DNA of 32,562 bases from Synechococcales cyanobacterium CRU_2_2 (GTDB lineage: Bacteria; Cyanobacteriota; Cyanobacteriia; PCC-9006; JAAUQQ01), in NCBI GenBank assembly GCA_012034805.1, contig JAAUOP010000046.1:1-32562 (forward strand), read 5' to 3'. The first letter of the stretch is position 1; every line of letters starts with the position of its first letter. Below the pieces are notes generated by a model. That model was not told the DNA's origin, searched no databases, and saw only the letters and a list, made by a program, of their open reading frames with translations. The position numbers and the translations under genes are program-made. Of the stretch, positions 21,341 to 32,562 are shown one piece after another.

Positions 21341-22297
21341 ATGAAGCTGTTTTTTGATGGTGCAACTGATACCGGGCTTGTCCGTTCGGCAAATCAGGAT
21401 GCCTATTACCTTGATCCTGAGGGTCGATTTTTTATCGTGGCGGATGGAATGGGAGGCCACGCGGGCGGTGAAGAGGCGAGCCGTTTGGCGACGGATGCGA
21501 TTCGAGTCCACCTAGAGTCTCGCTGGCTCAGCGCTGACAGTTCGGCAGAACTGCTGAAGGCCGCGCTGCTCAAAGCTAATGGTGCCATTATTCAGGATCA
21601 ACTGAATCATCCTCAGCGTTCCGATATGGGAACCACAGCCGTGACAGTGATTTTCCGATCGGCTCAATCTGAAAGCGCTGAGCGAGCCAGCGCTGAATCA
21701 GCAAGTACCGAACCTGAAAGTACCGAACCTGAAAGTACCGAACCTGAAAGTACTCAACCTGAAAGTATCGAACCTAAGGATATTGAACTCAAAAATACTG
21801 AACCCGAGAGTGCCAAAGCTGAAAGTACTAAACCCAAAAACGCTCTGACGCAAACCGCAGCCCCCCCTAAACCTCCCCTCGAGCCCTGGTGTGCCCACGT
21901 GGGTGACTCTCGTCTGTACCGGCTGCGAGGGGCAACGCTAGAGCAAATTACGGAAGACCACACCTGGGTGAATAAGGCGAGCAAACTGGGGGTGATTACC
22001 GTGGATCAGGTCAAAACCCATCCCTGGCGGCATGTGCTGTCCCAATGCTTGGGGCGTCCTGACCTCAATGAAATCAGCGTTCAGCCGATCGAATTTCGCT
22101 TAGGCGATCGCCTGCTCATGTGTAGCGATGGTCTCACAGAGGAAGTCTCGGATCACCTGATTGCCGAACTGCTCAAGACCACCCGAGCCTGCGAGAAAGT
22201 CACGCTGAAGCTGATTGACTCGGCCAAAGACAACGGTGGCCGTGACAATATCACCGTGATTGTGATTGCAACGGATTTGCAAGAGCCAGAGGCTTAG
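21341..22297 (+). CDS. PP2C-family serine/threonine phosphatase with a repetitive insert
   Basis: DGATDTGLVRSANQDAYYLD..FIVADGMGGHAGGEEAS..DMGTTAVTVIF..WCAHVGDSRLYRLR..LLMCSDGLTEEV..DNGGRDNITVIVI. Confidence 0.95.
   Translation: MKLFFDGATDTGLVRSANQDAYYLDPEGRFFIVADGMGGHAGGEEASRLATDAIRVHLESRWLSADSSAELLKAALLKANGAIIQDQLNHPQRSDMGTTAVTVIFRSAQSESAERASAESASTEPESTEPESTEPESTQPESIEPKDIELKNTEPESAKAESTKPKNALTQTAAPPKPPLEPWCAHVGDSRLYRLRGATLEQITEDHTWVNKASKLGVITVDQVKTHPWRHVLSQCLGRPDLNEISVQPIEFRLGDRLLMCSDGLTEEVSDHLIAELLKTTRACEKVTLKLIDSAKDNGGRDNITVIVIATDLQEPEA
21704..21838 (+). repeat. Nine-unit 15-bp tandem repeat (AGTACCGAACCTGAA), encoding STEPE-type pentapeptides
   Basis: Units read directly; the first three are identical and later units are degenerate. 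Confidence 0.9.
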
Positions 22298-27372: not shown

Positions 27373-28440
27373 TCAGGCAGCTTTGAGATCGCGACGACGA
27401 CGCCCGACAAATCCAACCAGGGCCAAGAAACTTGCGATCGCTCCCCCCGCTTCCGGTACCGCCTGGGGCGGCTGAGGTTGGCTGGCCTCCAAGGCCAACA
27501 GGGCCTGAGCCGCGATAATTTGATGGCCCTTGGTTGTCGGATGTAAATCATCCCAGAACAGCGAGGTTTCACCACAGGCCGCCAGGGTTGCCGGATCGGA
27601 GATGGTGTTGTCTGCAAGTTGAGCTAACGTAAAACAGGGCACATCGGCTTGGGTAAAGCCAAAAGCCCCAGGGTTCTGTTGAACTTGAGTAAAAACGGTG
27701 GCGACATCAAAGGGAACAACCTGAATGTCGCGGTGGGCGAGCTCAAATTGATTCAGCACCGTCGTCAGCCCCTGGTTATGGGCTGCGGTCAGAGCACTTA
27801 GGGCATCTGGCGCAATGGCTTGGCCCAGGGGTATGTTGCCGAGGTCGGGTAAATTGGCCACGAGGAAATTGCGCGCACCGCTGGCATACAGGTCGTTCAA
27901 AGCATTGCTGATATTCGTCAAGGGAATCTGCGGATTGGTTTGGCCGCCACCGAGATAATCATTCGCCCCGGCCCAATAGATGTAGAGCGCATCCTCTGTT
28001 GCACTCGGCCCAGCGGCATTGATAAAGCTTTGATAGGCCCCTAACTCGGTGGCGACACCGGGCAGCGCAGGGCTTCCGGCGGGCTTGAGCGGGTTGTCAT
28101 CGTTGGAATTGGTGTCGTCGGTGTTGGCTCCGGCGATCGCAAAGTTAATTCCCTGACTCGCCGACAGTGGATTCGCCTGAGCCGCCAAAATCCGCGCGGG
28201 CGAGAGGCCTAACTCATCGGCCAAGTACTCAACCCAAACGGGGCCATTGCTCGTACGACCGTCTACGTAGGGCGGGGGTGGGAATGTTCCTGCCGAAAGA
28301 TCAAACAAGTTGCCGGGGTCCGAAAGGCTGTCCCCAAACACGTAGAGGCGATCGAAATTCAGTGAAGCGGCTTCGCTGGGCAAGGCGGGGACGAGCAGCA
28401 GAACCGTCAAGCCAGTCAAAAGGGCAGGGGCTGATTTCAT
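27373..28440 (-). CDS. SGNH/GDSL hydrolase with PEP-CTERM-like sorting tail
   Basis: Signal peptide; YVFGDSLSDPGN; YIYWAGANDYL; LFWDDLHPTTKGHQIIA; C-terminal VPEAGGAIASFLALVGFVGRRRR. Confidence 0.93.
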   Translation of the reverse strand: MKSAPALLTGLTVLLLVPALPSEAASLNFDRLYVFGDSLSDPGNLFDLSAGTFPPPPYVDGRTSNGPVWVEYLADELGLSPARILAAQANPLSASQGINFAIAGANTDDTNSNDDNPLKPAGSPALPGVATELGAYQSFINAAGPSATEDALYIYWAGANDYLGGGQTNPQIPLTNISNALNDLYASGARNFLVANLPDLGNIPLGQAIAPDALSALTAAHNQGLTTVLNQFELAHRDIQVVPFDVATVFTQVQQNPGAFGFTQADVPCFTLAQLADNTISDPATLAACGETSLFWDDLHPTTKGHQIIAAQALLALEASQPQPPQAVPEAGGAIASFLALVGFVGRRRRDLKAA

Positions 28441-28782: not shown

Positions 28783-29073
28783 CTAGGGCTTAATCAGCTT
28801 GATGATCTCCTTAAGGGCAATCACCATCCATAACAGGCAGCTAATCGTCAGTGCTGTAATGCCATCCCAATCCAGCAGCTCCTCTAGGGCTTGGTAATGA
28901 ACGGAAACATTCATCAGCACTTTGAGCAAGGCAACAACGCCTGCCAGTGAGAACCCGGCAGTGAGAATAATTTTTTCGTCTGTCAGCCCTGTCGCTCGAC
29001 GTTGCTGATGAGCAAAGGCAGAGACCACAACAACTGCAAGGAACCAGAAAAACCAGTAAAGACGGGGAGACAA
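28783..29073 (-). CDS. Small multi-pass membrane protein (96 aa) at the end of the CHAT gene string
   Basis: Hydrophobic segments LYWFFWFLAVVVVSAFA, LTAGFSLAGVVALLKVLM, ITALTISCLLWMVIAL; starts 11 nt after the protein A stop. Confidence 0.65.
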   Translation of the reverse strand: MSPRLYWFFWFLAVVVVSAFAHQQRRATGLTDEKIILTAGFSLAGVVALLKVLMNVSVHYQALEELLDWDGITALTISCLLWMVIALKEIIKLIKP

Positions 29074-29084
29074 GACGCGATGAC

Positions 29085-29801
29085 CTAAGGGTTACGATTG
29101 GAGTGAGTTGTTTTAGGCGCAACATAGAAGCCCGCCCAGCAGCCGACGATCGCGCCCAGCAACGCGCCCAGGAGTTGACTTACGCCACCCCCAAAGAGTT
29201 GGACAACAGCGCCGCCTAAAAAGGCTCCACCGGCGGCCATGATGGCGATGCGATCGAAGTTTTCCCAAGCAGATGCTTTGGCGGAGCCACGCTGCCGCTG
29301 CGCCAAACGATGCACATCTTGTTGCCTGGAATCAAGGCTCGGCTCGGCTTCCAGATGCGTGCTGTCGCTGGGGCTGGGTTGGGGGACGACGATGGGCTGA
29401 GGCACAACCGCTTGTGGCGCGTTCTGTTCGGGACTGTTTCCGTTAGATTGCATCGAGCTAGATTGCGTCGAGCGGTTGGCTTCGCCAAGCGCCGAAGGGT
29501 TGCCGATCTGCGGGGCGTCTAAGGTCTTTTCGGGGGCTCTTTCGAGGCCTACTTCGGGGGCGTATAGGCGCTTGTTGCGATCGCCTGACTCACGCCGCAG
29601 CATGTTCCGCGCGGTGCGATAGCAGGCCTGAAGCTGGGGGTGCGTTTGGGCGATCGCGCTCAATTCCCCAGCTTGACTTTCTAAATCATTTTCCAAGGCC
29701 CAAATATCCCCAGGCAGCTCAACGTTTTCTTCGCGGCAGATTTCGAGGGCGATCGCAAAGGCCTCAACGGCGAGTTGTTCGAGGGGGGTAAGGGATGACA
29801 T
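29085..29801 (-). CDS. Protein A: shared N-terminal domain plus linker plus glycine-zipper transmembrane C-terminus
   Basis: MSSLTPLEQLAVEAFAIALEICREENVELPGDIWALENDLESQAGELSAIAQTHPQLQACYRTARNMLRRESGD.. and C-terminal IAIMAAGGAFLGGAVVQLFGGGVSQLLGALLGAIVGCWAGFYV. Confidence 0.85.
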   Translation of the reverse strand: MSSLTPLEQLAVEAFAIALEICREENVELPGDIWALENDLESQAGELSAIAQTHPQLQACYRTARNMLRRESGDRNKRLYAPEVGLERAPEKTLDAPQIGNPSALGEANRSTQSSSMQSNGNSPEQNAPQAVVPQPIVVPQPSPSDSTHLEAEPSLDSRQQDVHRLAQRQRGSAKASAWENFDRIAIMAAGGAFLGGAVVQLFGGGVSQLLGALLGAIVGCWAGFYVAPKTTHSNRNP

Positions 29802-29804
29802 GGT

Positions 29805-29867
29805 TTAGGCTCCGAATCCCGTGAACATGAACCAACATTTAGATTGCGTTTCTATTTTCATCATCAT
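29805..29867 (-). pseudogene. Residual C-terminal tail of a second CHAT gene (or 20-aa leader ORF) directly upstream of protein A
   Basis: Encodes MMMKIETQSKCWFMFTGFGA* then ACC ATG TCA TCC; the intact CHAT gene ends WAAFTLAGLGT* then ACC ATG TCA TCC. Confidence 0.6.
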
Positions 29868-29889
29868 AAGGCTCACCGCTTAACACGAA

Positions 29890-30321
29890 TCATCCAGGTG
29901 AAACCACGAGGGGAGCAACTTCCGCACCGAGCCGGAGAAAGTCTTTGGCGTTGAGCGTCAGCAGTCGGCTCGCCCCGGCCTTGAGGGCGGCTTGGGCGAT
30001 GAGGGCATCAAAGACAATGCCCCCCGTCAACTGAAGATTCACAAGACGATGAATGGCAGCCTCGTAATCTTGGGGCTCCAAAACAATCTTTTCTAGGATT
30101 TGAAGGTTACCGAGGAGTGCGTTGACCTCCCTGGGCTGGAGTTTGGGTATTCGGGGAAGACGAGTGAGCACAGAGTAAAGCTCGGCCAGAGTGTGCGTTG
30201 AGACAAAACCCAGGGTGGTGGCGTTGTGCACTTTTTCTAGCCAGCTCAGGCAAAAGATGTGTTGGGGATGATCTTCAAGGAGCGCAGCAACTAGGGTAGA
30301 AGTATCAAAGAGTGTTCTCAT
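29890..30321 (-). CDS. PIN-domain (VapC-like) ribonuclease
   Basis: MRTLFDTSTLVAALLEDHPQHIFCLSWLEKVHN..FVSTHTLAELYSVLTRLP..LQLTGGIVFDALIAQAALKAGASRLLTLNAKDFLRL. Confidence 0.93.
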   Translation of the reverse strand: MRTLFDTSTLVAALLEDHPQHIFCLSWLEKVHNATTLGFVSTHTLAELYSVLTRLPRIPKLQPREVNALLGNLQILEKIVLEPQDYEAAIHRLVNLQLTGGIVFDALIAQAALKAGASRLLTLNAKDFLRLGAEVAPLVVSPG

Positions 30322-30779
30322 GATTCAGCGATACCCAGCCCCATTAGGGTATTTAAGCGGCTGTCGCGATCGCCTTGCACGAGATGATCCCAGTCGGCAT
30401 TGGCCTGATGAACTGCTCTCACGACCCAGAATGCGCCAACCCGTTTCAGGTTGCGCAGGTCTCCTTCTGAGGGGTTTGTCGGGGTTTGGGTCTGGACGAT
30501 TGGGGCTGGGACGGTTTGCCTGGGGGCTGCATCGCTCCGGGGTAGGAACCTGTCACCGTCGCCCGAAGCTCGTCTCAACACGTTTCTGGCATTGCGATAA
30601 AACGCGTTGAACTGGGGGTGTGTTTGGGCGATCGCACCCAATTCCCCCACATGCTGCTCTAAGTTATTTTTCAACACCCTGATTTCCTCGGGCAGCTCAA
30701 TGCCTTCCTCGTGACACGTGTCTAGGGCTGCTGCGAAGGCGTTCAAAGCGAGTTGTTCGAGCGGACTAAGGGATGACAT
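30318..30779 (-). CDS. Protein B: shared N-terminal domain protein between CHAT and PIN genes
   Basis: MSSLSPLEQLALNAFAAALDTCHEEGIELPEEIRVLKNNLEQHVGELGAIAQTHPQFNAFYRNARNVLRRASGD..; ATGA overlap with the PIN gene; 3 nt after the CHAT stop. Confidence 0.85.
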   Translation of the reverse strand: MSSLSPLEQLALNAFAAALDTCHEEGIELPEEIRVLKNNLEQHVGELGAIAQTHPQFNAFYRNARNVLRRASGDGDRFLPRSDAAPRQTVPAPIVQTQTPTNPSEGDLRNLKRVGAFWVVRAVHQANADWDHLVQGDRDSRLNTLMGLGIAES

Positions 30780-30782
30780 GGT

Positions 30783-32562
30783 TTAGGTTCCGAGCCCCGC
30801 GAGCGTAAACGCGGCCCAGTAATAGGGGTGATCGTAACGGATCCGTGCTGGCTCCATTGTATCAAGGTCGTCCCGTTCCTCCGTCAGGAATTCCCGCACA
30901 TTTGCCGGTACATCGAGGCTGAGCCAGCGATCGTAGCGGGTTTTGAGTTGGGCCACGGTGAGGGTCCGCAGGGTTTGGCGGCTGTGGTGCAGGGCTGCGA
31001 TCGGCCCGAGATCAAGCTGGTCATAGAATTCAGCCATAAAGACCATGCTGGCCGCAGATTCCACGGTCCAGAGCGTACTGAGGACGTGGGGAATGCCTTG
31101 GGCCAGGAAGGCACTGGTGAGGCCGACGTATTCGGCGGTGATGGTTTGGTTGCCAGTCAGGGCGCTTTCGCAGCTGGCCAGGGTGACGAGGCTGTAGGTG
31201 TTCAGCGAAATTTGGCGCAGGTCTTGGACGGTGAGGGTGTCGTGACCTTTGAGGGCAAGGGCGGATTGTTTGGGGTCGTCGAAGTTGTAGCCAGCGTGGC
31301 CGTTGAAGTGGAGGATTTGGTGGGGTTGCCCGAGGACTTCGCTGACGTGGGCGGCTGTGGCTTCGGGAGCAGGAATCGTTTTAACGGTATGGGTGGTGCT
31401 GAGGAGCTGGTTGATCAGGTGGGTTTCGGCCTCGGCGTGGTACAGCGCACCCAAACCATCGTGGTCGGGCGCACTAATCGTCAAAGCCATCCGTAGGGAC
31501 GAACCGCCATTCGTTTGGCTCTTGGTTTGACCCAGGCCCGACGGGCGCAGGGTTTGGCCAAGCCGAATGCTGGGCAGAACGGTGGTTTGGTATTCGGGAA
31601 AAGCGTGGTGGAGCGGCAAGCGATGCAAGTCACGGTGGGGGACGAGGGTGAGATGGGTGATTTCGGCGGGAAGGCGGGCTTTGAGCGCGTCGAGTTGGAG
31701 GATTTGGGCGAGGCGGTTGAGTTTGTTCGGGAGCTCAGCGTACCAGACCGATTTTTTCGGGTTGCTGGTTTGGGTTTTGCTTTTGCTTTTGTCGATGTGG
31801 GCTACGTAGTTTTGGTTCCAGGTTTGGAGCCAGCCTTCGAGTTCGGTGATTTGTTTGAGGGCGGTTTGGGTGTCGGGGGCATGGAGGATTTGGAGGTCGA
31901 TATCTCTTTCGGCTCCGGCCCCGGCGGGCGAGGGAAGCAGGAGGAAGGTGGTGAGGGCGTTGGGGCTTTGGTGCCAGTAGAGGATGGCTTGGTGGGGTTG
32001 GAGTTGGAGTTGGGGGGCGTTGGTTTGGGCGTTGGTTTGGGCTTCGGCCAGGAGCCAGGTTATGAGGGCGTTTTTGTCGGTTTCGGCGGTTTCGAGGGCG
32101 GCTAGGTTTTTGCCTTGGCGAATGAGGAGATCGACGGTGAGTTGGTTGAAGTTGGGCAGGGTGCGGGCTAGGCGGTTGCGCTGGTCTTCGGTTGTGGCGG
32201 CATCTAGAATTCGAGCACGCAGGGCGGTGCCTTGGCGCAGGAGGGCGAAGATGGGTTCGTCGTGGGGGAGGCCGAGGGCGAGGTGGGTGGTGATCAGGCT
32301 TTGGAGGCTTTTTAGCTCGTCTTGGAGGTGGCCTGTTGCTCGGAAAATTTGGCTGGCCTGATCGTAAGCATCGCGGGCGGCGCGCCAGTAGGGGCGGGGG
32401 CTGGCTTGAAGGTTGGCGTGGTTCCAGTGGGCGTTGCCGAGTTGGTGTTGCAAGAAGGCGTGGCCGTAGGTGGGGGCGGGGCATTGGTGCAGTCCTTCTT
32501 GGAGGCTGGCGAGTTGGCCGGGGTAGCCGCGTTGGTTTAGGTGAGGATTTTTGAAGCGGAGG
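30783..32562 (-). CDS. TPR/CHAT domain (caspase-like) protease, N-terminus beyond window edge
   Basis: Catalytic-type motifs ILHFNGHAGYN (His) and YSLVTLASCESALTG (Cys); SAFLAQGIPHVLSTLWTV; PYYWAAFTLAGLG. The frame stays open to 32562 (..LRFKNPHLNQRGYPGQLASLQEGLHQC..), so the listed 32453 start is an artefact. Confidence 0.93.
   Translation of the reverse strand, partial: LRFKNPHLNQRGYPGQLASLQEGLHQCPAPTYGHAFLQHQLGNAHWNHANLQASPRPYWRAARDAYDQASQIFRATGHLQDELKSLQSLITTHLALGLPHDEPIFALLRQGTALRARILDAATTEDQRNRLARTLPNFNQLTVDLLIRQGKNLAALETAETDKNALITWLLAEAQTNAQTNAPQLQLQPHQAILYWHQSPNALTTFLLLPSPAGAGAERDIDLQILHAPDTQTALKQITELEGWLQTWNQNYVAHIDKSKSKTQTSNPKKSVWYAELPNKLNRLAQILQLDALKARLPAEITHLTLVPHRDLHRLPLHHAFPEYQTTVLPSIRLGQTLRPSGLGQTKSQTNGGSSLRMALTISAPDHDGLGALYHAEAETHLINQLLSTTHTVKTIPAPEATAAHVSEVLGQPHQILHFNGHAGYNFDDPKQSALALKGHDTLTVQDLRQISLNTYSLVTLASCESALTGNQTITAEYVGLTSAFLAQGIPHVLSTLWTVESAASMVFMAEFYDQLDLGPIAALHHSRQTLRTLTVAQLKTRYDRWLSLDVPANVREFLTEERDDLDTMEPARIRYDHPYYWAAFTLAGLGT

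Follow-up and report, generated by a model that had tools for sequence, protein, structure and literature searches.

A recurrent cyanobacterial gene module linking a CHAT protease to adaptor-bearing membrane or toxin-like cassettes

Gene array at the contig end

At the end of contig JAAUOP010000046.1 from Synechococcales cyanobacterium CRU_2_2, five minus-strand open reading frames (ORFs) encode a CHAT protease, a protein B, a PIN-domain protein, a protein A and a small transmembrane (TM) protein. A and B begin with the same short domain, which we call the adaptor. The window, i.e., the whole stretch of 32,562 nucleotides analysed here, is the entire contig (handle G000:C151; other genomes and loci are cited by G and L numbers); the array fills its last 3.8 kb, and the CHAT gene runs off the contig end. 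It has the structure of an operon: the CHAT stop codon and the ATG of B are 3 nt apart, B and the PIN gene overlap in an ATGA, 88 nt separate the PIN gene from A, and 11 nt separate A from the TM gene. The genes, their place and all of these junctions had been given by the initial annotation and agree with the ORF list and with our reading of the sequence, and its CHAT and PIN calls were confirmed by Pfam (Table 1). It had overlooked an antitoxin-like tail on B and two relics, one of a CHAT 3' end in front of A and one of a third effector type. Pfam gave nothing above cut-off for A, for B or for the small TM protein.

Table 1. Features of the array and of its downstream edge (window coordinates)
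Feature	Position	Strand	Basis
CHAT protease, last 592 aa; truncated 5' by contig end	30783..32561	-	Pfam PF12770, E 1.3e-39
B, adaptor N-domain and putative VapB-like antitoxin tail	30318..30779	-	N-domain profile; C-terminus compared with antitoxin tails of standalone VapC relatives
B adaptor N-domain, aa 1-77	30549..30779	-	64% identity with A
B putative toxin-binding antitoxin tail, aa 111-148	30336..30449	-	Profile of 18 antitoxin tails
Putative VapC-like PIN toxin	29890..30321	-	Pfam PIN, E 3.9e-14; ATGA overlap with B
CHAT 3'-end vestige, CWFMFTGFGA-stop	29805..29837	-	24/36 identity to CHAT 3' end
A, adaptor N-domain and glycine-zipper two-helix membrane segment	29085..29801	-	C-terminus matches T3, E 6.8e-10
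A adaptor N-domain, four predicted helices, then DRNKR	29562..29801	-	AlphaFold2; motif conservation
A W-x(3)-DRI and glycine-zipper segment, aa 172-221	29139..29288	-	T3 C-domain profile
Small membrane protein, TTG start, second gene of T3 cassette	28783..29073	-	T3 partner-gene profile, E 8e-10
T2 adaptor C-domain remnant (LPANSCQADRDYFQ...DAYVMIPNGENY), without own start codon	28591..28782	-	T2 C-domain profile, E 3.4e-24

Judged by its domain (residues 281-589) and its His-Cys dyad, the window CHAT protein is a CHAT peptidase, with the predicted catalytic His in NGHA and the Cys in SCES. In the aligned CHAT proteins linked to adaptors, the His is kept in 55/55 and the Cys in 54/55. The window protein is 67% identical to the CHAT protein of L035, a TPR-CHAT protein of 1728 aa for which PADLOC returned TPR matches. 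Other complete linked proteins are also long and carry TPR-like repeats (1017 aa in L037, 1009 aa in L038 and 922 aa in L159). The CHAT frame is broken in two at L135 and L142, where about 1.3 kb separates the body from the C-terminal tail, possibly because of an insertion in the protease gene.

The shared N-terminal domain of A and B noted in the initial annotation was recovered over about 77 residues (64% identity). AlphaFold2, run on three sequences, placed helices at residues 6-24, 31-38, 41-52 and 55-71 of A, with a block predicted local distance difference test (pLDDT) score of about 78-90 for residues 1-70. The adaptor is thus predicted to be a four-helix domain of about 75 aa that is absent from Pfam. 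A fold search of the A model against the PDB returned nothing significant (best E 0.45; four-helix bundles this small match much weakly), and the adaptor profile found only coiled-coil or helical chance matches among PDB sequences (best E 0.0044). The adaptor, the TM partner and a 450-aa partner had no Pfam match above cut-off, those tested had none in NCBIfam, and PADLOC gave weak or TPR matches only for adaptor and partner proteins.

Directly behind helix 4, a basic residue occupies adaptor position 75 in 60/84 sequences and position 77 in 62/85, often within ERNKG. This stretch, [ED]-R-x-[KR], is the sole conserved polar feature right behind the N-domain. A second short motif, I-L-x-A-x-D-S-V-x-x-A-K, follows it in the standalone group and the cassette types T1, T5 and T6 described below (e.g., L094, L102 and L106), and may itself belong to the adaptor.

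Linkage to CHAT genes and cassette types

The initial annotation had named homologues of A and B without association with CHAT genes as the observation that would count against a module. A search of contigs with a three-sequence adaptor alignment recovered a single relative, and whole-genome profile searches were required. The adaptor profile was seeded from both window copies and one relative and widened stepwise, and the surroundings of about 80 best matches in cyanobacteria were fetched, picked on adaptor score and blind to neighbours. The resulting 91 adaptor genes comprise 85 of CHAT type and 6 of a diverged standalone group.

The association is present. A CHAT gene lies on the same strand within 300 nt upstream of 61/85 CHAT-type adaptors: at 30 nt or less in 50, mostly with a 4-nt overlap, and at 31-300 nt in 11. 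A further 12 have a CHAT gene 301-1200 nt upstream, and 12 have none, 4 of these near a contig end. Because the 5.3-Mb source genome holds only 20 CHAT matches, this adjacency is beyond chance. The CHAT-adaptor-effector arrangement recurs in many cyanobacterial families with membrane or nuclease effectors, so the five window genes are no chance grouping and the recurrent module is real. It is known so far only from cyanobacteria, the sole group searched in depth. With the standalone group included, an adaptor match was found in 121/293 genomes of the order of G314; the window's own order gave none in its five other genomes.

No CHAT gene lies upstream of any of the 6 standalone-group adaptors, and this group, a branch unlinked to CHAT, was set apart. 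Its members are about 130 aa long, share the N-domain, carry a DPVQAA motif, end in a conserved NPLKRxxGRG-like sequence and often lie among similar genes. Standalone relatives not linked to CHAT are found at L011, L014-L019, L021-L030, L032, L033, L108, L113, L119, L123, L126 and L130.

The adaptor C-terminus and the next gene co-vary, the partner being a membrane protein (the commonest case) or a toxin (PIN, YoeB, RelE-like or HNH). Type T1 was assigned by profile and all others by reading. T1 (57 genes) joins a short adaptor to a protein of 420-530 aa that is predicted to have one or two membrane helices. T2 (L035, L036, L039 and L083) has a C-domain of about 75 aa and a TM protein of 170-185 aa, T3 (window A, L043, L046, L142 and L151) a glycine-zipper membrane segment and a TM protein of about 100 aa, and T4 (L087, L112 and L150) a 230-aa adaptor and a 225-aa TM protein. 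In T5 (L085, L092, L098, L099 and L102), the partner is a RelE-like toxin, named by eye, for which L092 gave no significant Pfam match. In T6 (L094, L109 and L110), it is a PIN protein of about 200 aa (PIN E 1.6e-6 for L109), and in L133 an HNH protein (E 1.4e-11). At L159 (3174-8856), adaptor pairs stand on both sides of the CHAT gene. The upstream pair is an adaptor with a Phd/YefM antitoxin (E 1.7e-10) followed by a YoeB toxin (E 9e-32); in the downstream pair, the adaptor partially matches HicB-like/DUF7387, and the gene behind it is PIN-like by eye, without a Pfam match.

In the window, A and the small TM protein form a T3 cassette, and T3 occurs directly behind CHAT elsewhere. The earlier description of a duplicated adaptor holds for the shared domain and fails for a matched pair, since A and B belong to cassettes of different origin. 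We therefore dropped A and B as a heteromeric pair: the C-terminus of A with its TM partner is a cassette that stands alone behind CHAT at other loci.

Antitoxin chimeras and displaced cassettes

In the RelE-like cassettes, the antitoxin N-terminus has been swapped. The last 46 aa of the adaptor proteins at L092, L085 and L102 are 50-74% identical to the tails of standalone antitoxins with an unrelated, AbrB-like N-terminus, and the antitoxin upstream of standalone relatives of the L092 toxin combines such an N-terminus with a tail of about 46 aa. Because the tails match, we conclude that the N-terminus was exchanged while the presumed toxin-binding tail was kept. The Phd fusion at L159 is independent of these chimeras. 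Replacement of the antitoxin's own N-terminus by the adaptor is thus clear for the RelE-like and Phd/YoeB families, and the case is weaker for B of the window.

The window PIN protein scored 41.1 bits with the NCBIfam model Mtu_PIN_fam, below its cut-off of 73.6, and relatives 45-59% identical to it occur elsewhere in the class. These are preceded by short antitoxins, usually at or overlapping the PIN start, whose N-termini differ and whose tail is common. The tail of B gave a weak match of 10.3 bits to a profile of 18 such tails, over the full 38-column model and above all 20000 shuffles (best 10.0). Among the 18 tails, that of the antitoxin beside the closest PIN relative (L164) matched the tail of B with a blastp E of 6e-4. 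The layout is that of VapBC, with a small gene directly upstream of the PIN gene and an ATGA overlap as in the standalone relatives. An N-terminal DNA-binding or dimerisation domain of the VapBC kind was not found in B; the adaptor N-domain, which has no Pfam match, stands in its place. With moderate confidence, to which the position of B adds support, we regard B as a putative adaptor-antitoxin chimera. The initial annotation was right in placing an adaptor beside a PIN gene, but B is probably not a mere adaptor, as its last ~40 residues resemble PIN-family antitoxin tails.

The window also holds traces of earlier cassettes. Although the C-terminus of A and its partner match T3, the N-domain of A is T2-like, with 63% identity to L039 and about 21-22% to the T3 adaptors L043 and L046. 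The T2 C-domain remnant follows the TM gene's stop codon immediately and is the sole match in the window to a profile built from L035, L036, L039 and L083. In front of A, the CHAT 3'-end vestige matches the CHAT 3' end at 24/36 bases (0/100000 shuffles as good), and its spacing to the start codon of A is 3 nt, equal to that between CHAT and B. The CHAT domain of the window groups as sister to L035 (SH-aLRT 99) in a 55-domain CHAT tree, inside a T2 clade (100). The window thus carries B-PIN, T3 and a T2 remnant, and no intact T2 cassette despite its T2-clade CHAT. L162 (L045) shows a comparable picture, with the end of another frame, a bodiless and longer CHAT tail (E 4e-9), then an adaptor and a gene of 141 aa.

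In polymorphic toxins, a conserved upstream part is followed by a variable C-terminus and a partner gene, with displaced remnants downstream. The cassettes of the module are displaced in the same way: a constant part precedes an exchangeable C-terminus and partner, and older remnants have been pushed aside in the window and at L162. Unlike in polymorphic toxins, the constant part here is a tag beside a protease gene. No delivery genes for secretion of the polymorphic-toxin type were noticed, without a systematic search. The likely order of events is that T2 was ancestral, that T3 then split T2, and that B-PIN was later placed beside CHAT, an insertion that would use the conserved junction between the CHAT end and the adaptor start. 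Across the CHAT tree, the cassette types require 8 changes against a shuffled mean of 13.9; they cluster with CHAT clades, and therefore exchange occurs but is not rampant.

By reading, TA-like (toxin-antitoxin) or Rpn-like genes lie on either strand in the CHAT-adaptor gap of L135, L139, L140, L144 and L154, and insertions at this junction seem to be frequent. The T2 remnant is directly followed by a gene for a GDSL-esterase-like protein with an apparent PEP-CTERM sorting signal at its end (27373-28440, minus strand), and farther away lies one for a 318-aa protein (21341-22297, plus strand), PP2C-phosphatase-like by sequence, with internal imperfect ESTEPESTEP repeats.

Proposed mechanism and related systems

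Several described systems resemble parts of the module. In Microcystis aeruginosa PCC 7806, the gene of the cyanobacterial caspase-homologue cysteine protease MaOC1, which has a basic preference, is followed by a type II TA pair (ParE/ParD-like), and cleavage of the adjacent antitoxin leaves the toxin no longer blocked (PMC7935541). MaOC1 is described there as an orthocaspase, CHAT is mentioned nowhere in the paper, and no shared adaptor domain was found in the text consulted; its authors regard the juxtaposition as apparently unique among Microcystis strains, whereas the family here is recurrent and carries many toxin types. In Craspase (type III-E, Csx29/Csx30), a TPR-CHAT protease likewise triggers a downstream response through one dedicated partner, Csx30, which it cleaves (PMC11106740, PMC10028731), but in the present module its place is taken by toxins or membrane proteins that bear the adaptor tag. 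The module CHAT scored 45.8 bits with the curated Csx29 model (cut-off 300), and no gRAMP/Cas7-11 or CRISPR array was seen by reading among the longer ORFs of L035, L037 and L038; the window contig ends within CHAT. HetF, a CHAT protein of Anabaena, is reported to cleave the regulatory protein PatU3 and acts in cell division and heterocyst differentiation, and no toxin cassettes were found in the text consulted (PMC12288457). EAD systems, in which a short helical domain tags many different effectors in multicellular bacteria including cyanobacteria (Kaur and others 2020, 2021; PMC7159879, PMC8195603), share the constant domain, but a CHAT linked to antitoxin fusions was not found in the searched text. 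None of the 11 adaptors scanned matched an EAD model of Pfam (EAD11 on L043 reached merely E 0.13), and none of the five window genes matched gasdermin. No description of CHAT-linked adaptor-antitoxin cassettes was found in the open-licence literature, and an earlier account elsewhere is possible. Each part (CHAT protease, type II toxins, exchange of cassettes, tag domains) belongs to a known kind, and the combination looks new.

We consider it rather probable that the module is a CHAT-protease system with interchangeable effectors, in which the activated protease acts on the tagged protein and frees the effector. The large TPR-CHAT protein would be the sensor-protease, and the four-helix N-domain a tag coupling the effector to it. 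The tag would be followed in some cassettes by a membrane segment, a membrane-protein partner or both, as in A and the TM gene, and in others by an antitoxin part that neutralises the matching toxin encoded by the next gene, as in B and the VapC-like PIN protein. Upon a presumed trigger, CHAT would bind the tag and most likely cut just behind the N-domain at [ED]-R-x-[KR]; we propose this because of the basic motif behind helix 4 and the precedents of MaOC1, HetF and Craspase. The cut would inactivate the antitoxin and free the RNase, or would free the membrane effector, leading to growth arrest or cell death.

Several observations count against this proposal. B lacks the R-x-K form (it reads GDGDRFLP), so the proposed cut site may fail for B, and the match of its tail is by itself weak, at 10.3 bits against 10.0 for the best shuffle. 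The commonest cassette, T1 (57/91), has a membrane-protein partner and no toxin, and therefore toxin release cannot be the sole output. The flanks of the loci examined are unlike defence islands. No CHAT was detected upstream of 4/5 RelE-like cassettes and of the HNH cassette (one at a contig edge); the adaptor therefore either acts in trans in these cases or has CHAT-independent roles. Adaptor-antitoxin/toxin pairs without a nearby CHAT are L098, L085, L099 and L133. Genome G251 holds the L098 pair together with a separate CHAT-linked adaptor (L149), an arrangement that suggests action in trans.

Recruitment without cleavage could account for the same genes: the N-domain would dock effectors on an activated TPR-CHAT platform, where clustering switches them on, and the protease would have other substrates. 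A short helical domain on many effectors, with orphan copies far from CHAT, fits the EAD principle as set out in PMC7159879 and PMC8195603. However, the antitoxin fusions are more easily explained through antitoxin destruction than through clustering, a basic motif is conserved at the start of an exposed linker, and the catalytic dyad is kept throughout the linked CHAT proteins; we regard recruitment alone as unlikely. A still less probable explanation is that TA modules often insert at this place and that B-PIN stabilises the locus as an addiction module and has no functional tie to the protease. By reading, complete TA-like modules do lie in the CHAT-adaptor gap, of HNH type in L140 and with RelE- and MazF-like genes on the opposite strand in L135, L144 and L154. 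These inserted modules have kept the N-termini native to their antitoxins; fusions with the adaptor, by contrast, are intact, in frame and recurrent across the VapC, RelE-like, YoeB and HNH families. The flanks of L035 are housekeeping genes and most modules carry a membrane partner (T1), as would suit HetF-like signalling in development or stress, with CHAT, adaptor and membrane protein regulating division or the envelope and the toxin cassettes as side-products of decaying loci; HetF itself works in division and differentiation. The patchy distribution, with 121/293 genomes positive in one order and five others of the window's order without the adaptor, and the turnover of effectors look instead like a conflict system, and we give this explanation very little weight.

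Proteolytic release of tagged effectors thus remains our preferred explanation. The arrangement suggests that the protease decides the timing of toxin release, with the shared adaptor in place of the DNA-binding half of the antitoxin in some cassettes. More tentatively, with the balance tipping slightly the other way, the modules may represent a widespread cyanobacterial class of caspase-licensed TA systems, in which one TPR-CHAT protein and one degron-like tag serve an exchangeable pool of RNase, HNH and membrane effectors that recombine at the protease-adaptor junction. If so, exchanging a cassette would let the sensor switch to another way of killing, as in polymorphic toxins. Cleavage targets are known for few of the many cyanobacterial CHAT proteins, of which this genome alone has 20 matches; here, a candidate substrate, a candidate cut position and an expected output are all encoded beside the protease, and the idea is therefore directly testable. 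A common tag replacing antitoxin DNA-binding domains would place toxins under a dedicated protease rather than Lon or Clp, and would bring TA modules and cassette exchange together with bacterial caspase-like proteases in one system.

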